A stretch of DNA of 64,000 bases from assembly GCA_016124805.1 (NCBI GenBank), contig WGND01000013.1:1-64000 (forward strand), written 5' to 3'. The position numbers and the translations under genes were made by a program. Positions 39,987 through 49,001 of this stretch are shown here, piece after piece. The notes below the pieces were generated by a model that was given only the letters and a program-made list of their open reading frames with translations, was not told where the DNA came from and ran no database searches. The DNA is from Hyphomicrobiales bacterium (GTDB lineage: Bacteria; Pseudomonadota; Alphaproteobacteria; Parvibaculales; Parvibaculaceae). How positions within the stretch are numbered: the first letter of the stretch is position 1; each line of letters starts with the position of its first letter.

Positions 39987-40042
39987 TGGTGGCCCCTGCG
40001 GGGGTCGAACCCGCACTCCCTTTCGAGAAACAGATTTTAAGT
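39987..40042 (-). tRNA. Partial tRNA-Leu(UAA): 3' fragment, attachment-site duplicate
   Basis: On the minus strand the sequence runs from the anticodon loop (CTTAAAA, anticodon UAA) through a long class II variable arm (CTCGAAAGGG), the T arm (GCGGG-TTCGACC-CCCGC) and acceptor half AGGGGCC to an encoded ACCA end at 39987. Upstream of the loop the sequence diverges into AT-rich DNA: no D arm or 5' acceptor exists. This is the displaced 3' end left when an element integrates into a tRNA gene. Confidence 0.85.
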
Positions 40043-40316
40043 CCTAATTAAAAACATCTAAGTTATTGATATAAATAACATATTTTAACAGTCAATGCGT
40101 TAATGTGCTAGCTGATGTGCTAATAGACCCTTTTTTGACCTCTTTGGCGCAACGGACCGCCTATCCGGCTCGACAATCCACAAATTATTGATTCGACATA
40201 CTGATTTTAAGCGTCAGCCAGTATGTGTGACGAGCGTGCTAGATTTTGTGCTGACGCGGCACCGCACTACGTCTCGGGATATTGCGTTGGATTTCTATTT
40301 GGCGGCAAAGTGACGA

Positions 40317-40949
40317 ATGACACGCTCAATCGACCATGCCGCGAAAGAACATGCTGTCCGCAGTATCGGCATGCCGGAGTGTTTGCATGTGCCAATCGCC
40401 GCCATCGATGAGGCAGCAATTGGCACCTATGTTGGCGATATCATCAAAGAACTGGGAACAGGATCGCCACCAAAAGCATTTTTGGTTCGCATAGATGAAC
40501 CACCTCCAAGGGACGCGCGCCTGCCCATCTGGGACCAAGAAGGATCGAAGATATTTTACCAGCGCGAGCAGGTGTGGGTTCGGGTTGAGTACACGCGCTA
40601 TCGGGAGGCATATCGAAGGGCTTTTCCCACTGAGGATATTGCGGACAAGATTTTGAGCCATTGCATGAACCGTCGCATAGCAGCCCTCAAAGGGTTTCAA
40701 TATGTACGGATTACACCGACCACTCGCGGAGCCAATTCAAGCAGCGGATTTTCTGAAAGCTGGGGTGTAGCGCTCTGGTCCAAACCCGATGAATTAGCAT
40801 CATTTAAACGGCGGGGCGTCGCCATCCAATATGCCGACCTTAGCGACCTGATGCTGATGTTGGATATGAAGCTAGGTGGTGGAATCATGGAAGCAGTGAA
40901 TGCTGGCCAGAAATTGATACTTCCATCAGCGCAAGTCACGCTCAAATGA
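40317..40949 (+). CDS. Orphan protein of unknown function
   Basis: 210 aa, first gene of the island. It starts with a short helical part, then a mixed alpha/beta region with PPKAFLVRIDEPPPRDARLP, YTRYREAYRRAFP and IQYADLSDLMLMLDM. No signal peptide or membrane segment; family not recognised. Preceded by 270 bases of AT-rich DNA without a gene. Codon use looks AT-richer than the chromosome. It is 300 bases upstream of the methyltransferase operon and might belong to the same defence locus. Confidence 0.65.
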   Translation: MTRSIDHAAKEHAVRSIGMPECLHVPIAAIDEAAIGTYVGDIIKELGTGSPPKAFLVRIDEPPPRDARLPIWDQEGSKIFYQREQVWVRVEYTRYREAYRRAFPTEDIADKILSHCMNRRIAALKGFQYVRITPTTRGANSSSGFSESWGVALWSKPDELASFKRRGVAIQYADLSDLMLMLDMKLGGGIMEAVNAGQKLILPSAQVTLK

Positions 40950-41260: not shown

Positions 41261-42316
41261 ATGCCAACATCAAAACAACCAAAACATCGAAGCGCTCCAT
41301 CTCGTTCGGCGGCGAAGCCTCTGCACGTTCCATCCGTCAAGGAGGCATATAAGTCCTCTCACGGACGAATGTTGATTGGACGAATAGAAGACGCACTGGA
41401 TAGCAAAGACTTGTCGCCATTGCGCGGGAAGACGAATCTCATTTTTACGTCTCCCCCATTTCCACTTGTTCGTAAGAAGCGTTACGGCAACGAAACTGGA
41501 ACCACCTATCTGCGATGGTTGGAATCGCTCGCGCCGCGACTATGTGACCTGCTTGCACCTGACGGTTCCATTGTCATAGAGATAGGAAACTCGTGGGAAC
41601 CCGGCACGCCGGTCATGTCCACACTGGGCCTCGAAGCCCTGCTTGCATTCAAACGCGCAGGCAACCTTCACTTGTCCCAGCACATTATATGCCACAACCC
41701 AGCTCGCCTCCCAAGCCCGGCACAATGGGTCAACATCAATCGAGAACGGCTCAAGGATTCTTTTACGCATGTCTGGTGGATGTCACGTGCTGAACATCCG
41801 AAAGCAGACAATCGAAGGGTGCTGCTGCCGTATAGCCAGCATATGAAAGGACTTCTAAAATCGCAAAAGTACAATGCTGGCGCCCGCCCGTCAGGGCACG
41901 TCATTTCAAGCACTGGATTTTTGACCGATCATGGCGGTGCAATAGCCCCCAATGTAATTAGCATGGATGAGCAATCGCCTTCGCTACCCGAATCCCTACT
42001 GAAATTCTCTGGCACATCGGCCGACGCAAAATATCGTCAGTATTGTGAAGAAATGGGATATGAGGCACACCCTGCGCGCATGCAAATGGGTCTCGCAAGT
42101 TTCTTCATTCAGTTTTTGACAGAACCTAGTGATGTTGTATTCGACCCGTTCGGAGGTTCAAACACGACTGGCTACGCCGCCGAAGCGCTCGATCGCAAAT
42201 GGGTGTCGGTGGAAGCGAATGAGGAATATGCGCTCGGATCAAAGGGTCGTTTTGAAATGGACGCTACGGAGACACATAAGACCAAAGTGAAGGGGCGGAA
42301 AAATGCAACCAAGTGA
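41261..42316 (+). CDS. DNA methyltransferase, SPPY-type (likely N4-cytosine)
   Basis: 351 aa. The catalytic motif TSPPF is at 63-67 and the AdoMet motif DPFGGSNTTG at 295-304 near the C-terminus, with SVEANEEY after it. This order (catalytic before AdoMet-binding) marks the beta class; SPP(Y/F) suggests N4-cytosine rather than N6-adenine methylation, but that is inference. No separate specificity domain is obvious, so recognition lies between the motifs. Overlaps the next gene by 14 bases. It would protect the host genome in the operon described under findings. Confidence 0.9.
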   Translation: MPTSKQPKHRSAPSRSAAKPLHVPSVKEAYKSSHGRMLIGRIEDALDSKDLSPLRGKTNLIFTSPPFPLVRKKRYGNETGTTYLRWLESLAPRLCDLLAPDGSIVIEIGNSWEPGTPVMSTLGLEALLAFKRAGNLHLSQHIICHNPARLPSPAQWVNINRERLKDSFTHVWWMSRAEHPKADNRRVLLPYSQHMKGLLKSQKYNAGARPSGHVISSTGFLTDHGGAIAPNVISMDEQSPSLPESLLKFSGTSADAKYRQYCEEMGYEAHPARMQMGLASFFIQFLTEPSDVVFDPFGGSNTTGYAAEALDRKWVSVEANEEYALGSKGRFEMDATETHKTKVKGRKNATK

Positions 42317-43868
42317 TTTTGGGGAAGTTACTATCGGGTCGGCTGCGATAAAGAACTACGCGCGCATGCCATATACGATGTGGTTTGCTCTGGCCGAATT
42401 CATTGATAACTCCACCCAATCTCGCCTCAACTACCCCGATCTCGTCGATGAAGCCCTGAAAAAAGAAGGAACCCCGCTCGTCGTTCAAATCGATTACAAC
42501 ACGACAAAACGCGAATTCATAATATCAGACAACTCAATTGGAATGTCGAAGGATGACCTACTCGCGGCGCTAAAAATAGCCGAGCCAACCAAAGATAGCA
42601 AAGGTCGTTCTAAGTACGGCATGGGTATGAAAACAGCTGCTTGCTGGATTGGCAATCACTGGACGATCGAGACGGCAGAGCTGACGAGTGGCGAGGAGTG
42701 GACCGCAGAAATCGATGTCGAGAAGATCGCAAGCGGCGACCCGAAGGTTCCGCTCACGATGAAGCCGGTGGACGGCAACGCACATTACACGCGTATCACT
42801 ATCAAGGATTTGAATCGCAATCTTCAAGCACGGACAGACGAAACGATAAAGGCATACCTGAGTTCTATCTACCGGTTCGATTTGCAGGAAGGAATTCTGA
42901 AGATTGTGTATCGTGGCGAAGAAATTCCCGCGCCACCGGACGACAATTTCGATACGGACATGGAAGGCAAGCCCATGATGCTACCTTTCGAAACCAAAAT
43001 CGGAGATAAGGAAGTAAAGGGATTTGTCGGCGTGCTGAAACAAGGCGCTGGCGGTCGCAAATTCGCGGGTTTTTCGCTCTATCAAAACCGGCGCCAGATC
43101 AAAGGATTTCCCACCGCTTGGAAACCAAGCAATATTTTCGGTGGCATCAACGACGAAGGCGCCAACAACCTTGTATCGCAGCGCTTGATGGGCGTTATCG
43201 AATTGGACAAGGGATTCAACGTCTCCCATACGAAAGACGCGGTGTTGTTTGCAGCGAGCGAAGAAGAACATCTCGAGGATTTTCTGTTCACTCTCACAAA
43301 AGAGTATCAGGAATTTGCGAGTACCCGGCGCGGCAGTGAACGCGACCCGATCAAGCGCGAAAAACTCAAGCAAATGGTCGCTGATCTCAAATCGGAATTT
43401 ATCAATGACGAAATGAAAGATGTGATCAACGCGTCGGTTTTGCCACCCCTTGAGATGATCCTTGCCAACAACGCCAAGCAAGCCGAAGGCGTTTCAGAGG
43501 ACGAAAAAGCAGCCTCTTGGCAAATCAATGCGGACTTGCGGGTCGATATCTGGATTCAGGACAAGAGTGAGAACGACCCTTATGTCGTACGTTATGCCGC
43601 CGCCGAGAAAGGCGTAGTGCACATCATCATCAACCGGCTTCATCCTTACTACGCCTGCCGACCGACGATTGAAGCCATCTATGAATGTTTCCGGCAGTAC
43701 ATCTATGATGCGGTCGCAGAGTATCGCGTCGCTCAGATGATGAATGTTACACCTGACAGCGTTCGTCGAATGAAAGACAACCTCCTTCGGGCTGAAGCAA
43801 ATCGCGTCGATAATCTTGAAGCGCCGCCAGCGGCAAAAGTTGCCAACGGCATCGCGGAAGCCGGTTAA
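42303..43868 (+). CDS. GHKL ATPase, MutL/MORC-like
   Basis: 521 aa. The Bergerat ATP fold is intact: N box EFIDN (32-36), G1 DNSIGM (76-81) and G2 GRSKYGMGMKTA (101-112). It is followed by a ribosomal-S5-like domain with AGFSLYQNRRQIKGFP and a conserved lysine in HTKDAV, the layout of MutL, Hsp90 and MORC ATPases. The C-terminal 190 residues are not recognised. Prokaryotic MORC-like proteins are known in restriction-type operons with methyltransferase, helicase and nuclease, exactly the neighbours here. It probably clamps DNA and couples recognition to cleavage. Confidence 0.85.
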   Translation: MQPSDFGEVTIGSAAIKNYARMPYTMWFALAEFIDNSTQSRLNYPDLVDEALKKEGTPLVVQIDYNTTKREFIISDNSIGMSKDDLLAALKIAEPTKDSKGRSKYGMGMKTAACWIGNHWTIETAELTSGEEWTAEIDVEKIASGDPKVPLTMKPVDGNAHYTRITIKDLNRNLQARTDETIKAYLSSIYRFDLQEGILKIVYRGEEIPAPPDDNFDTDMEGKPMMLPFETKIGDKEVKGFVGVLKQGAGGRKFAGFSLYQNRRQIKGFPTAWKPSNIFGGINDEGANNLVSQRLMGVIELDKGFNVSHTKDAVLFAASEEEHLEDFLFTLTKEYQEFASTRRGSERDPIKREKLKQMVADLKSEFINDEMKDVINASVLPPLEMILANNAKQAEGVSEDEKAASWQINADLRVDIWIQDKSENDPYVVRYAAAEKGVVHIIINRLHPYYACRPTIEAIYECFRQYIYDAVAEYRVAQMMNVTPDSVRRMKDNLLRAEANRVDNLEAPPAAKVANGIAEAG

Positions 43869-43873
43869 GAATC

Positions 43874-45028
43874 GTGACTGAGTTCGCACTCCGAGCTTGG
43901 CAGAGAGAAGCGCTCACGCTATGGAAAAGCGCGAGCCACAGAGGAATCGTCGAGGTCGTCACTGGTGGTGGAAAAACCGTCTTTGCTCTCTCCTGTATCA
44001 AAGAACTTGGTGCTGATACGACGTTGGTAGTCGTGCCAACTGTCGCACTCCTCGACCAGTGGTGGGAAGAGGCAGCCGCATTCTTCGATCTGTCGTTGGA
44101 CGAAATCAACATCATATCGTCAGCGGGCAATATCCGTCCGGGGACGATAAATCTCGCGGTGCTGAACACCGCGTCTAAGATCACACCGGATCGACGCAAA
44201 GCGCCGTACTTCCTGATCGTTGACGAGTGCCACAAAGCGGCCAGCGAAAAATTCCGAACGGCTTTGGATGGCACGCCGATCGCAACGCTAGGTCTCTCTG
44301 CCACGCCCGACCGCCCCTATGATGAAGGTCTGAGCGAGGTCCTCATTCCTAAGCTTGGGGACATCATTTACAGCTACACCTATAAGGATGCTCTGCGCGA
44401 CAAGGTGATCGTTCCATTCGAACTCAAAAATATTGTGTTTGAACTCGAACCAGAGCGACAGGCTGATTACAACAAGCTGACAAAAGCCATTGCAAGGTCC
44501 ATGAGCCACAACGGGGCTGACGACGAAAAGACAATCGCACTACTTCTTCGGCGCGCCAGGGTTATGAATCTGAGCATCAATCGTATTCGGCTGACCCTTC
44601 GATTGATCCGAGCACATAAGGGAGCGCGAACAATTGTATTTCATGAGGACATCGAGGCCTGCGATGTCATTCAAGAAATACTCAACGAAGCCGGGATTCG
44701 AGCCGGGGTGTATCACTCTAAACTAAAATTACGCCAGCGTGCCGAAGTATTGGCCGCGTATCGGCATGGCGAGATTGATGTTCTGGTCACATGCCGCGCG
44801 TTGGACGAAGGTTTCAACGTTCCAGAAACAGAAATTGGAATTATCGCAGCGAGCACGGCAACGCGGCGACAGCGCATCCAGCGCTTGGGACGCGTACTGA
44901 GACCGGTAAAGGGAAAGGACAGCGCGATCATCTACAGCCTTGTTGCTACCGAACCGGAGATAAAGCGATTGCGCGAGGAAGAGGCGGAATTGGAAGGCGT
45001 TGCGGAAGTGACGTGGGCTCAAGCATGA
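43874..45028 (+). CDS. SF2 DEAD/DEAH-type helicase (SSL2/COG1061-like)
   Basis: 384 aa; GTG start at 43874, five bases after the ATPase stop. Motifs in order: RAWQREAL (Q-like), Walker A TGGGKT, DECH Walker B, SATPDRP (motif III), and ATRRQRIQRLGRVLRP (motif VI). It is a compact two-RecA core without large accessory domains. It should translocate on or open DNA in the operon's response. The last bases overlap the next start as ATGA, so translation is coupled. Confidence 0.9.
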   Translation: MTEFALRAWQREALTLWKSASHRGIVEVVTGGGKTVFALSCIKELGADTTLVVVPTVALLDQWWEEAAAFFDLSLDEINIISSAGNIRPGTINLAVLNTASKITPDRRKAPYFLIVDECHKAASEKFRTALDGTPIATLGLSATPDRPYDEGLSEVLIPKLGDIIYSYTYKDALRDKVIVPFELKNIVFELEPERQADYNKLTKAIARSMSHNGADDEKTIALLLRRARVMNLSINRIRLTLRLIRAHKGARTIVFHEDIEACDVIQEILNEAGIRAGVYHSKLKLRQRAEVLAAYRHGEIDVLVTCRALDEGFNVPETEIGIIAASTATRRQRIQRLGRVLRPVKGKDSAIIYSLVATEPEIKRLREEEAELEGVAEVTWAQA

Positions 45029-45813
45029 CAACAATTCTTGTGGGCGAATGCGATAAACTGAATCTGTTTCAAATCTGGGACGCAGATGCCGCGCTTGAAA
45101 CTGAATTTGAGTTGATCGTTGCTAAGGCACTTCTGTGCATTTACCCGAACTACCACTGCTTTCCTTTCGGAGGCACATTCAAGCTCGAAGATAACGTCCG
45201 ACGCCCGGATTTGGCACTGGTAGCAAAGGACATGTCTCATTGGTTCGTTATTGAGGTAGAACTTGTTTCGCACTCGCTTGATGGGCATGTCCTTCCGCAA
45301 GTCCGAACATTCCGGTACGGCGAGCCGCAGCGCGACTGTATCTCCGTACTTTCGAAAGCACTTTCGATGGACCGGAATCGAATCGAGACATTCCTGCTAT
45401 CGGTCCCGCGAACGGTTGCTGTCATTGCTAATAAGCGGCACCGCGATTGGGAAATCGCCCTACGCTCACTGGAAGTCCAGATGCTGACGGTTTTGGCGTT
45501 CAACTCGCCCGGCGGAATCCAAGCAGTTGAGATTGATGGCAAACTTATTGCTCATCAAGAACATATTGGATTCGGCGAGTACGTTGCCACCGACCGCGCC
45601 ATCCGGTTTCATAGAGGAGTACGATTGCCTGACGGCGAAATCATGGTGGACGATTTCACCGGTGCTGGCAGCACTTGGACCGTGCGGCGCGACGGCATCT
45701 CCGCGTGGGCTGCCAAGAACAGAGGTGCACCAGATATTATCAATGGTTCTTGGGTTCAGATCATGCAAGCGTTCGACGGGCGCTTCTCAATCCGACGTTC
45801 TCCCGGAGCATAA
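45025..45813 (+). CDS. PD-(D/E)xK-like nuclease with EVE variant
   Basis: 262 aa from the ATG at 45025, overlapping the helicase stop. A helix with acidic ETEFELIVAKAL (25-36) is followed by RRPDLALV (Asp62) and, on the next strand, FVIEVEL (Glu77, Glu79). This is the PD-(D/E)xK restriction fold with Glu where Lys is usual. The second half is unassigned, with FHRGVRLPDGEIMVDDF and ending in IRRSPGA. Likely the cleaving subunit of the four-gene system; activity is inferred. Confidence 0.72.
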   Translation: MTTILVGECDKLNLFQIWDADAALETEFELIVAKALLCIYPNYHCFPFGGTFKLEDNVRRPDLALVAKDMSHWFVIEVELVSHSLDGHVLPQVRTFRYGEPQRDCISVLSKALSMDRNRIETFLLSVPRTVAVIANKRHRDWEIALRSLEVQMLTVLAFNSPGGIQAVEIDGKLIAHQEHIGFGEYVATDRAIRFHRGVRLPDGEIMVDDFTGAGSTWTVRRDGISAWAAKNRGAPDIINGSWVQIMQAFDGRFSIRRSPGA

Positions 45814-46307: not shown

Positions 46308-46646
46308 TCAATATTCTGAGGCCAGCATGATCGTCAGAACACGGCGGGTAACGGTAGGATCGGATGGATCGTCCGAACCATAGGTCAGTGTCGTATCGTA
46401 GCAGTCGATCTTCCAGAACAGCGTTTCACCGCAAAGGTTGAAAGAACCAAAATCGTGCTCACCGTATGGATCATTATCCGGGGTGAAGCCGTCAAAACCC
46501 TGCACAGCTTGTGTGACGAGTGTAATGAAGTCTGGGCCCAAAGCGACGACGCCCCGGGTCAGCATCCATTGGCCGGTTGAGAATCCACCAATGCGGAAAG
46601 CATCGTTGAGTTCACGGACGCGGATTGCTGAAAGGGTGGAAGTCAT
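46308..46646 (-). CDS. DUF3768 domain protein
   Basis: 112 aa from the ATG at 46646, with GGAGG seven bases upstream. The sequence IRVRELNDAFR, GQWMLTRGVVAL, EHDFGSFNLCGETLFWKID and YDTTLTYGSDDP is characteristic of DUF3768 (PF12599), found mainly on plasmids and conjugative elements of alphaproteobacteria. Role unknown. Its start overlaps the stop of the gene before it (ATGA). Confidence 0.88.
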   Translation of the reverse strand: MTSTLSAIRVRELNDAFRIGGFSTGQWMLTRGVVALGPDFITLVTQAVQGFDGFTPDNDPYGEHDFGSFNLCGETLFWKIDCYDTTLTYGSDDPSDPTVTRRVLTIMLASEY

Positions 46647-46864
46647 TTCGAGCCTCCTTCGAGAGCGGTGCGCTCGGTGATGACCCGCAAGATCAGGCGG
46701 CCCTGAAGCGGGATGGCATCGCATGAGAGGCTAAAGCCCATGCCGTCTTTGTTCGGCCAAGCGGCACCGATGGGTGTCCAGCTTGAGGCGTCACCGTCGC
46801 CGACAACGCGGTAAAGACGATGAGTAGGTTTGCGGCCCTGAGGTTTGGGTGATTGTTTGGGCAT
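46643..46864 (-). CDS. Small plasmid-type conserved protein
   Basis: 73 aa. A basic start (MPKQSPKPQGRKPTHRLY) leads to a beta-rich core with VGDGDASSWTPIGAAWPNKDG and LQGRLILRV. It has the look of the small DUF736-like proteins that accompany DUF3768 on plasmids. AAGGAGAA precedes the ATG. First gene of the unit. Confidence 0.72.
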   Translation of the reverse strand: MPKQSPKPQGRKPTHRLYRVVGDGDASSWTPIGAAWPNKDGMGFSLSCDAIPLQGRLILRVITERTALEGGSK

Positions 46865-47372
46865 GATGGTTCTCCTTCATTTCAGCCGCGGGACCATCCC
46901 GCGGCTTCATGGGGAGAGGGGGGAGCAAGCCATTAAGCTGCCGGTCATACCCCGTGCGAAAGCACGCCCGGAGAGGGCGGAGCTGCACTAAGCGCAAGCG
47001 AAGGAAGCGAGCCGGGTTGACTGGTGGCGGGCTTGATCCAAAACGCGCCCATAAAGAAGCCGCATATGGTCTTGGCTCGAAGAAGAGACTTACCTGCAAA
47101 TGCCCCAACCCCGGCGCTAAACATCCTTAGTGCTTAGCCCGCGCGGGATTTCGGTCTCTTGGATACATCGTTGGCAGTCCGGCAGCCATTGACCTCGTGG
47201 GCTAATATTTTTCTGAGAAAAAATGTCATGGGCAAAGCGCCCAAGAACCTTTTGACACGGCCAGAATGCCTGATCATATGGGTAGAGTCAGCAGCGCTGC
47301 ATCAGGGCCGCCACGATTTGACGGCAATCGAAGCCGACTGCCGTAAGTCAGAACCGATTGAATGATGTTACG
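46865..47372. other. Intergenic region with GNRA-loop hairpin
   Basis: About 510 bases, no convincing gene. CGTGC (46953-46957) and GCACG (46962-46966) form a hairpin with a GAAA tetraloop, next to GC-rich repeats. CCCGCGCGGG at about 47137 is a 10-base palindrome. It likely holds the promoter of the DUF3768 unit; an RNA or a second origin-type site is possible. Confidence 0.4.
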
Positions 47373-49001
47373 ATGAGCTTGAGCTTCAGTCGATATATGG
47401 ACGTCCGCAAATTCACGCGCGAATTGGAGGCGCTACGCGCCTTTCGTGGAGAACATGTCGGAAGCAACCTTCTTGAAGCGCTCGAAAAATCGCGCCTGCT
47501 GATTCCACAAATCCGGATTCGCTATCCTGATCCTGTCGCACGCCGCTTTTGGGCCGAAGCGCATGACGAACGGATGCACCAACTGAAACTTCCAATGGAG
47601 CCCGATAGCCCCCGTTGGGAGAACGCAGTTGAATTGAGCAATCGCATCTATCGTGGGCGCAACCGCAGCGCCTACGGTCCTTCAGTTCATCCATTAGACA
47701 AGCCGGAACCACATTTTGCAGAGTTCATACAATACCCGGCGATGATGGATTTTGAGCCTTGGCTCGATACGCGCATCGACGTGAGCAACGATGTGTATCC
47801 GGAACTTCTCGATAATGGAAATGTCGAGACCTATTACACCACCTGGCAAATTCTCGTCGCAGCAGAAGTCGCCGATGCGGGGGTTCATTTCCGTATCAAT
47901 TTAGCCGATGACGATATTTTTCATGCCGTTCAAGAAGCTCTTCACAACGGTCTGGCTCCAGCAAATTCATTTTCACTCAATTTTCTCCCTGTACATGTGG
48001 CCAGAGACTTCGCGCAAAACGAGCCCGCTCTCAATGCGGTGGTCTGGTTTGCAGAAGAATGCGAATACACCCTGACGGAAATTCTTAAAGGTCAAGGGGG
48101 CGGGCGTTTCCGTTTAAGCGAACAGCAGGAAACAACGTACCAACAAGCATGCAGGGATGCTGCTAAAGCGGCGACCAACCAATATCAGATCAGCACTGAT
48201 GAGTTGGTCGCGCTATGTCGCCTCTTGGCGAGGCGCTGGTTGGACTGGAATCGTCAAGGTCGCCCGCTAATTGCCGATGCCTACAAGGATTTTCTTGGTG
48301 AATCTGTTCAGTTGACCAAGCTAATAGGTGATCTCACATTCGTTGAAATACGGGACCGCGTGGAACATGCCAGCACTCGGGGCCGACCAATCCTAGATGA
48401 GATTTGGCCAAATTGGAGCGAGCGGGAAAAGGATCGCGTTCGACTAACGCTGAAAGCCGCCCTCAAACAACAAGACACCAATGACGTCAGCGAAGCAGAC
48501 ATCGATGCTTTTGTGAACTTCCTCGAAGAGAGAGGATTGGAAGCCTTTTTCTGGCGCCTAAATTCATTTGAGAGTCACGCATTCCGAGGGAATGAATTTG
48601 CCCTTGAGGGAATGAAGAGCGATCTACAGGGCATGGCTGTGGCAGTCGAGCATGTTGCTGGCGCTCTAGGCGGCACTGAGACGCAACTCTACGAAAAGTT
48701 CAAGCAGCTATGGCGCAATCCCAACGTATTGCGGCTCTTGAAGAGAGTGGATATTTCGAGTTTGGCCCGCCAGAAGCGTAATTGGGCCGAGTTCAAGGTG
48801 CAGCTTGAGGCGCTCCGTCAAGAACAGGGTGGAAAAACCGCCGCTGATTTGGTCTTGGCGTACCGTATCCGTGGTGGCGTCCATACGACGCTGCCGGAGG
48901 ATGATCAGTTCGAGCTACAAGGTTTATTCGTAGCGCTTATGCGCGCCGCCGTTCTGACTTTTGTCGAAGTAAGAAGAAGTCCCGCTATAGCTCTCAGGTG
49001 A
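47373..49001 (+). CDS. Large orphan protein of unknown function
   Basis: 542 aa from the ATG at 47373 (a TTG five codons earlier is possible). Largely helical, with acidic YPDPVARRFWAEAHDERMHQL, FHAVQEALHNGL and LVALCRLLARRWLDWNRQGRP. No nuclease, ATPase or membrane motif seen. The final stretch is basic (VEVRRSPAIALR). It stands alone between the plasmid module and the Fic gene in a cargo region, where unrecognised proteins often serve in defence, but nothing in the sequence proves that. Confidence 0.6.
   Translation: MSLSFSRYMDVRKFTRELEALRAFRGEHVGSNLLEALEKSRLLIPQIRIRYPDPVARRFWAEAHDERMHQLKLPMEPDSPRWENAVELSNRIYRGRNRSAYGPSVHPLDKPEPHFAEFIQYPAMMDFEPWLDTRIDVSNDVYPELLDNGNVETYYTTWQILVAAEVADAGVHFRINLADDDIFHAVQEALHNGLAPANSFSLNFLPVHVARDFAQNEPALNAVVWFAEECEYTLTEILKGQGGGRFRLSEQQETTYQQACRDAAKAATNQYQISTDELVALCRLLARRWLDWNRQGRPLIADAYKDFLGESVQLTKLIGDLTFVEIRDRVEHASTRGRPILDEIWPNWSEREKDRVRLTLKAALKQQDTNDVSEADIDAFVNFLEERGLEAFFWRLNSFESHAFRGNEFALEGMKSDLQGMAVAVEHVAGALGGTETQLYEKFKQLWRNPNVLRLLKRVDISSLARQKRNWAEFKVQLEALRQEQGGKTAADLVLAYRIRGGVHTTLPEDDQFELQGLFVALMRAAVLTFVEVRRSPAIALR

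Follow-up and report, generated by a model that had tools for sequence, protein, structure and literature searches.

We have analysed a window of 64,000 nucleotides from the genome of a Hyphomicrobiales bacterium of the family Parvibaculaceae (assembly GCA_016124805.1, contig WGND01000013.1), and describe here an operon of four genes that spans 4.55 kb, all on the + strand. The genes encode a predicted DNA methyltransferase (MT), a MORC-like GHKL ATPase (GH), a superfamily 2 (SF2) helicase or translocase (HE) and a restriction-fold nuclease (NU). Sequence comparison and structure prediction make it probable, in our view, that the operon is an ATP-dependent restriction–modification (RM) system with a MORC-type clamp. 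A sequence-only reading of the same DNA had arrived at an ATP-dependent restriction system, and comparative genomics and structure prediction now lend that predicted function good support.

The genes are tightly packed. MT (41261..42316, 351 amino acids) overlaps GH (42303..43868, 521 amino acids) by 14 nucleotides; after a gap of five nucleotides comes HE (43874..45028, 384 amino acids, GTG start), which shares an ATGA overlap with NU (45025..45813, 262 amino acids). These coordinates and junctions are exactly those first recorded by the sequence-only reading, which took the four genes to be one unit and named a failure to recur as a set as the observation that would count against this. The set does recur. 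When 84,980 species genomes were searched with a GHKL profile built from two sequences, 30 loci emerged, and 19 genomes besides that of the window have the whole quartet side by side in one direction, making 20 complete sets with the window. There are two gene orders. The order of the window, MT-GH-HE-NU, is found in 11 other genomes (loci L011 and L013-L022; in L014 the contig runs out within NU), and MT-HE-NU-GH in eight (L025 and L027-L033). The hosts belong to at least four phyla and include Alpha-, Beta- and Gammaproteobacteria (Pseudomonadota), Acidobacteriota, Actinomycetota and Chloroflexota; a contig from Planctomycetota (L024) carries MT and then ends inside GH. Gene junctions in the sets range from -23 to +54 nucleotides.

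Recurrence of the four as neighbours on a single strand in 19 other genomes shows that the grouping is not due to chance. Pairwise distances for GH, HE and NU are correlated (r 0.94-0.97); those for MT correlate at 0.62-0.67 across the two gene-order clades and well inside each clade. Full-length NU is present in two of 398 genomes of the phylum, both of them carriers of the operon, and the flanking open reading frames (ORFs) of 23 loci include no further gene common to three or more of them (E<=1e-8). On these comparative grounds the four genes are shown to be inherited as a fixed module. The neighbourhoods of its relatives are mobile and defence settings: after the Zavarzinia relative (L007) come a tyrosine integrase and a HerA/SIR2 pair, AbiEi/AbiEii lie upstream of the operon in L018, and integrases occur nearby in L028 and L012.

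This distribution bears on whether the operon might be a DNA-repair or genome-maintenance module of the MutL/XPB/Bax1 kind that happens to lie on an island, its methylase serving for strand or self marking. Archaeal XPB is the nearest relative of HE in the PDB, XPB-Bax1 is a helicase–nuclease pair, and Bax1 is found among the weak fold matches of NU. The spread of the operon is, however, patchy (one of 40 genomes in the family, and the two of 398 in the phylum noted above). This patchiness, together with the mobile or defence neighbourhoods, makes a housekeeping repair function unlikely, and we consider such a module highly improbable.

MT matches Pfam N6_N4_Mtase (7.8e-29) and the PADLOC profile MTase_II (PDLC03323, 6e-75), and its nearest solved structure is M.PvuII (PDB 1boo, E 9.6e-63), aligned over residues 27-332 including TSPPF. 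By these matches MT is an M.PvuII-like, beta-class, Type II-like cytosine-N4 DNA methyltransferase. Its TSPPF (motif IV, residues 63-67) and DPFGGSN (motif I region, residues 295-301) are kept across 19 sets. The SPPF methyltransferase motifs, intact GHKL ATPase and main SF2 motifs that were initially read from the DNA are all present, and conserved in relatives.

NU has no match in Pfam, PADLOC or NCBIfam, and no credible sequence-only match of the protein or its C-terminal domain to the PDB or Pfam was obtained. The AlphaFold model (predicted local distance difference test score, pLDDT, 93) has an alpha-beta-beta-beta-alpha-beta core, in which a helix (25-39) is followed by strands, with Asp62 just ahead of strand 63-67, an ExE pair within strand 73-79 and a further helix at 85-98. 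Matches in BFVD are PD-(D/E)XK proteins. An alignment of 21 homologues shows E25, D62, E77-x-E79, H83, H88, P91 and Q92 to be invariant, and the motif reads D62-x14-E77-x-E79 followed by an invariant H83-x4-HVxPQ. Since the invariant residues sit on the restriction-endonuclease core of the model, NU is predicted to be a PD-(D/E)xK-fold enzyme with an E-D-ExE active site. It is a variant member of that superfamily, with glutamate replacing the lysine in 21 of 21 aligned members. BamHI likewise has a glutamate in place of the PD-(D/E)xK lysine.

From about residue 150 onward NU is predicted to be an all-beta domain (about residues 151-262, encoded by 45475..45810). For this domain Foldseek returned plant B3 domains (LEC2, NGA1, TEM1, ARF1 and RAV1) and the B3-containing enzyme BfiI; the modelled fold is therefore likely, though not established, to be a B3-like putative DNA reader. 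B3 domains are characterized by a pseudobarrel of seven strands. The initial description of a PD-(D/E)xK-like nuclease was right as to the fold, whereas the motif proves to be ExE and the B3-like domain had been missed. Searches of viral contigs and plasmids for NU homologues returned none. Two stand-alone proteins of 308-335 amino acids carry an NU-like motif, EVELISHSLKKHVLPQ and EAELLKHSVWHHIAPQ (L074:7003-8007 and L075:1150-2073), and the surrounding 12 kb and 8 kb contain no homologue of the MORC protein, helicase or methylase.

The helicase matches Pfam ResIII and Helicase_C, and its nearest solved relatives are archaeal XPB/RAD25 proteins (2fwr/6p66, 1.7e-35). The main SF2 motifs, GGGKT, DECH, SATP and QRxGR, are all intact and conserved. 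Against the PADLOC profile PbeA (PDLC02707) HE scores 1e-78, covering positions 250-641 of 672 only, and against TIGR04095, a phosphorothioation restriction family, it reaches 206 bits with the cutoff at 600. We take HE from these matches to be an XPB/Rad25-class SF2 motor that corresponds to the helicase half of PbeA and lacks the HKD nuclease half. Profile searches of defence libraries had been suggested as a check on the operon; with PADLOC and NCBIfam, MT is matched by MTase_II, HE by the helicase half of PbeA only and NU by nothing.

GH matches Pfam HATPase_c_3 (9e-25) and its GHKL module is intact. The AlphaFold model has a mean pLDDT of 77, lower in the C-terminal part, and its nearest Foldseek matches are the ATPase structures of MORC2, MORC3 and MORC4 (about 1e-15), with Hsp90/TRAP1 just behind. 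Recognizable motifs are E32xxDN, D76NSIGM, G106MGMK and the S5-domain lysine K311; an alignment of 24 sequences shows that E32/D35/N36, D76/G80/M81, G106-K110, T163 and K311 are kept and that the C-terminal region is conserved up to about residue 505. GH therefore has the four ATP-binding motifs and the S5 domain with catalytic lysine that mark the MORC family as defined in 2008 (PMC2292703). The MORC S5 signature given there, GhXhhpXXRhl, is exact in nine of nine members of the MT-HE-NU-GH clade, and the GH of the window (GFSLYQNRRQI) agrees at 10 of 11 positions, with glutamine at a hydrophobic position. Motifs and model together identify GH as a MORC-like GHKL ATPase with a predicted fold closest to eukaryotic MORC2/3/4. 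No GH relatives were found in phage records; those in IMG/VR are mostly of other MORC families (22-34% identity).

In 2008 Iyer, Abhiman and Aravind described operons that combine MORC proteins with SF2 helicases, nucleases and methylases, among them a Rad25-like type 1 (PMC2292703). The likeness to MORC-RM type 1 is close: a MORC ATPase of GHKL and S5 domains is accompanied by an SF2 helicase of the Rad25 class, a nuclease of restriction fold and a methylase. In our sets the Rad25-like helicase is adjacent in 20 of 20 complete cases, and the operon also has the nuclease of that fold and the DNA methylase. The difference is that in type 1 the helicase commonly carries the nuclease, or an HKD domain, as a fusion, whereas the window has a separate PD-(D/E)xE nuclease with a B3-like domain, and a PvuII-type N4 methylase. 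The operon thus belongs to the MORC-restriction kind predicted in 2008, and its version, with the separate PD-(D/E)xE-B3 nuclease, appears to be new. The original remark that the arrangement matches no named system holds for PADLOC v2, NCBIfam and the literature found, none of which gave a named profile for the layout; the general kind had been described, and a figure of PMC2292703 may already show this very layout without a name.

Other known systems share some of these parts. The dcm-MORC-Z1-PD-(D/E)XK operons, MZA-like and exemplified by a Rathayibacter festucae plasmid, fill the same four functional roles with a C5-methylase, a Z1-type helicase and another nuclease family, and their MORC proteins are about 30% identical. 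We observed such operons on plasmids of Rathayibacter (L010) and Hymenobacter (L009), a parallel version with other enzyme families. MZA itself, whose gene set mzaA-E includes Z1, was considered and rejected: GH has only weak similarity to MzaB (12 of 24 relatives, best 7e-6, none for the window copy), the NCBIfam MzaB score is 14 bits with a cutoff of 850, and no Z1 domain was detected in the operon proteins. Type I and Type III restriction enzymes, in which nuclease and motor are fused in HsdR or Res and accompanied by HsdS or Mod, do not fit the separate proteins of 384 and 262 residues and the Type II PvuII-like methylase. CglI and NgoAVII resemble the operon in having a separate methylase, a B3-containing nuclease (R) and an SF2 ATPase (N), but the described systems have three genes without a MORC protein and use a PLD nuclease, a Z1 helicase and a C5-methylase (PMC4267653). 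We rejected membership of this type for the window, which has a PD-(D/E)xK fold, an XPB-type helicase and an N4-type methylase. In VcSduA, a paraMORC3 Shedu protein with demonstrated phage defence, a GHKL ATPase is proposed to control a PD-(D/E)xK nuclease, although in one fused protein and without helicase or methylase (PMC12137116). Shedu was also set aside, as there is no DUF4263 match and the nuclease of the window is a separate protein.

These systems suggest how the operon may work. MT would mark a short target in host DNA, and the same target, when unmethylated, would be read by the B3-like domain of NU. Bound NU would recruit HE, which would translocate or remodel DNA with ATP like the R- and N-proteins of CglI/NgoAVII; there ATP-dependent cleavage requires that the B3-containing R-protein interact with the SF2 N-protein, and the two together hydrolyse ATP on unmethylated sites before cutting (PMC4267653). 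The MORC dimer might then close round DNA on ATP binding and hold or bridge the loops made by the motor, double-strand cleavage being licensed only if two complexes meet or the clamp persists. We regard the steps up to recruitment of the motor as likelier, and licensing by the MORC clamp as the least certain. Marking by MT and cutting by NU would follow from the enzyme families, and we infer from the model that the beta-domain of NU reads the target. By analogy with MORC2 and MutL, the MORC protein would hold DNA and gate NU, and its predicted fold is consistent with a clamp that controls helicase and nuclease. Human MORC2 clamps and compacts DNA in an ATP-dependent manner (PMC12216690). Phage defence by VcSduA requires both GHKL ATPase residues and nuclease residues (PMC12137116), and we see in it the nearest experimental parallel for a MORC protein that may gate a nuclease.

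Several observations weigh against restriction–modification by this route. The B3 matches mostly have probabilities of 0.9-1.0 but E values of 0.005-0.1, and sequence profiles give no B3 match. The target site of M.PvuII is CAGCTG. In the window the ratio of observed to expected CAGCTG is 0.61, about rank 24 of 64 palindromes and no special depletion; this count would be uninformative if MT had another target. A prophage-like viral contig (L041:1322-4685) has an integrase and then MT-NU-MORC with no helicase, by its gene content a minimal three-gene version of the system. A Poseidoniales archaeon (L034:7851-11500) has HE-NU-GH and no detected methylase. These two cases indicate that the parts of the operon are not absolutely obligate. 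The archaeal locus also has a peptidase S51 gene upstream and a 672-amino-acid unannotated protein downstream.

The contig without a helicase would suit an arrangement in which MT and NU protect and cut alone as a PvuII-type Type II pair, while HE and the MORC protein act later, to process ends or remove the enzyme. As a methylase MT is typical of Type II, and NU has its own nuclease domain and a probable DNA-reading one. Nevertheless, HE and the MORC protein co-diverge with NU as tightly as any pair in the operon, and neither is missing from any of the 20 complete sets, so that we judge an independent Type II pair to be quite unlikely.

GH-HE-NU occurs without an adjacent MT on the Pararhizobium plasmid pF5.1c (L012) and in Variovorax sp. 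dw_308 (L023). In the former another PvuII-like MT (E 1e-70) is carried by the plasmid at a distance of about 4 kb, and in the latter another (E 1e-75) shares the contig, some 27 kb off. A PvuII-like MT at E<=1e-30 is otherwise rare, being found in one of 396 genomes of the phylum that lack the operon. Since both MT-less operons have such a methylase nearby, these comparisons are suggestive of a restriction part that needs a PvuII-type methylase in the cell, with the proviso that they are two cases in large genomes rich in mobile elements. In Pararhizobium an AAA_5 gene, an unknown gene and the PvuII-like methylase, which has a MobC-like N-terminal extension, directly follow the MT-less operon (L012:14242-18444); this group, arranged much as in Variovorax, is possibly a separate system. 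The Variovorax MT locus has PbeC (2e-151), an AAA_5 gene and a protein of PbeA size whose helicase region is of PbeA type (2e-56 against the HE profile), and places the MORC module beside its probable sister system. On the Variovorax contig of 133,962 bases the PbeA-like helicase, PbeC and AAA_5 genes were located in L081:11159-15446 and L078:1-8644, and the Pbe-type locus also has a small DndE-like ORF and a PvuII-type methylase with an N-terminal extension.

The PbeABCD systems (CxC ABC-ATPase-DndE; PMC6459918, PMC10853773) have a PbeA-class helicase, N4-cytosine methylases in some cases and an ATPase that handles DNA superstructure. They differ in that PbeC, an ABC ATPase, and PbeD, a DndE protein, take the place of the MORC protein, and in that PbeA has a fused HKD nuclease and HE none. 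The window operon is not itself PbeABCD, given the partial coverage of the PbeA profile and the lack of any match to PbeC or PbeD in the operon.

The relationship does raise the alternative of methylation-guided exclusion, in which the MORC protein and helicase compact or block an unmethylated invader and stop its replication, as in PbeABCD or BREX, with the nuclease secondary. HE is PbeA-like, and PbeABCD is reported to halt virus replication without DNA cleavage (PMC6459918), a claim that is disputed by Iyer and colleagues (PMC10853773). DNA compaction by eukaryotic MORC2 (PMC12216690) and the Variovorax contig shared by a MORC module, a PbeA/PbeC system and a PvuII-like methylase point the same way. 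The active-site residues, however, form the invariant core of NU, which is retained in every complete set and in the helicase-less prophage version. We consider exclusion without restriction cleavage unlikely, and favour cleavage by a MORC-clamped restriction system.

The setting of the operon fits a horizontally acquired island: G+C content is 50-53% over 40-46 kb and mostly 56-60% in the preceding 40 kb, and NU is found in none of the 39 other genomes among 40 scanned from the family. The island had been placed beside a tRNA scar. Low G+C and the absence of NU from relatives fit the island, but the scar is not confirmed. A possible 3' remnant of tRNA-Leu(UAA), read by eye as a candidate attachment-site scar, lies outside the operon proper on the - strand (39990..40047) and terminates in CCA. 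ARAGORN and Rfam call no tRNA there or in the remainder of the contig, and no second or intact copy of the stretch was found in the searched assembly; a scar is only plausible. Promoter and terminator scans yielded no better than chance. The flanking ORFs at 40317-40949 (210 amino acids) and 47358-49001 (547 amino acids) have no match in Pfam, PADLOC or NCBIfam. A DUF3768 protein (46308-46724, 4.6e-34) adjoins an ORF of 108 amino acids within the low-G+C island.

A part in restriction was predicted for prokaryotic MORC ATPases in 2008 (PMC2292703), and the literature we found contains no experiment that tests a MORC operon of several genes. The module is compact, with bounded genes and clear catalytic residues; cloning should be easy, and the operon could serve to test whether closure of a MORC protein round DNA licenses restriction. 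A larger idea, which we advance tentatively and think unlikely, is that of a separate kind of MORC-based immunity in which the fate of unmethylated DNA, cutting or silencing, is decided by a MORC clamp that closes on DNA and not by the motor alone. The PvuII-type methylase and PbeA-type motor would be held in common with PbeC/DndE systems, the MORC protein and the ABC-ATPase/DndE pair would be interchangeable sensors of DNA superstructure, and the operon would represent a living prokaryotic counterpart of the eukaryotic MORC silencing of foreign DNA. The operon could reveal the role that MORC proteins had before eukaryotes turned them to silencing transposons and viruses. Most likely the four genes make up an antivirus system, in which relatives of the human gene-silencing MORC proteins would help to destroy unmarked foreign DNA.

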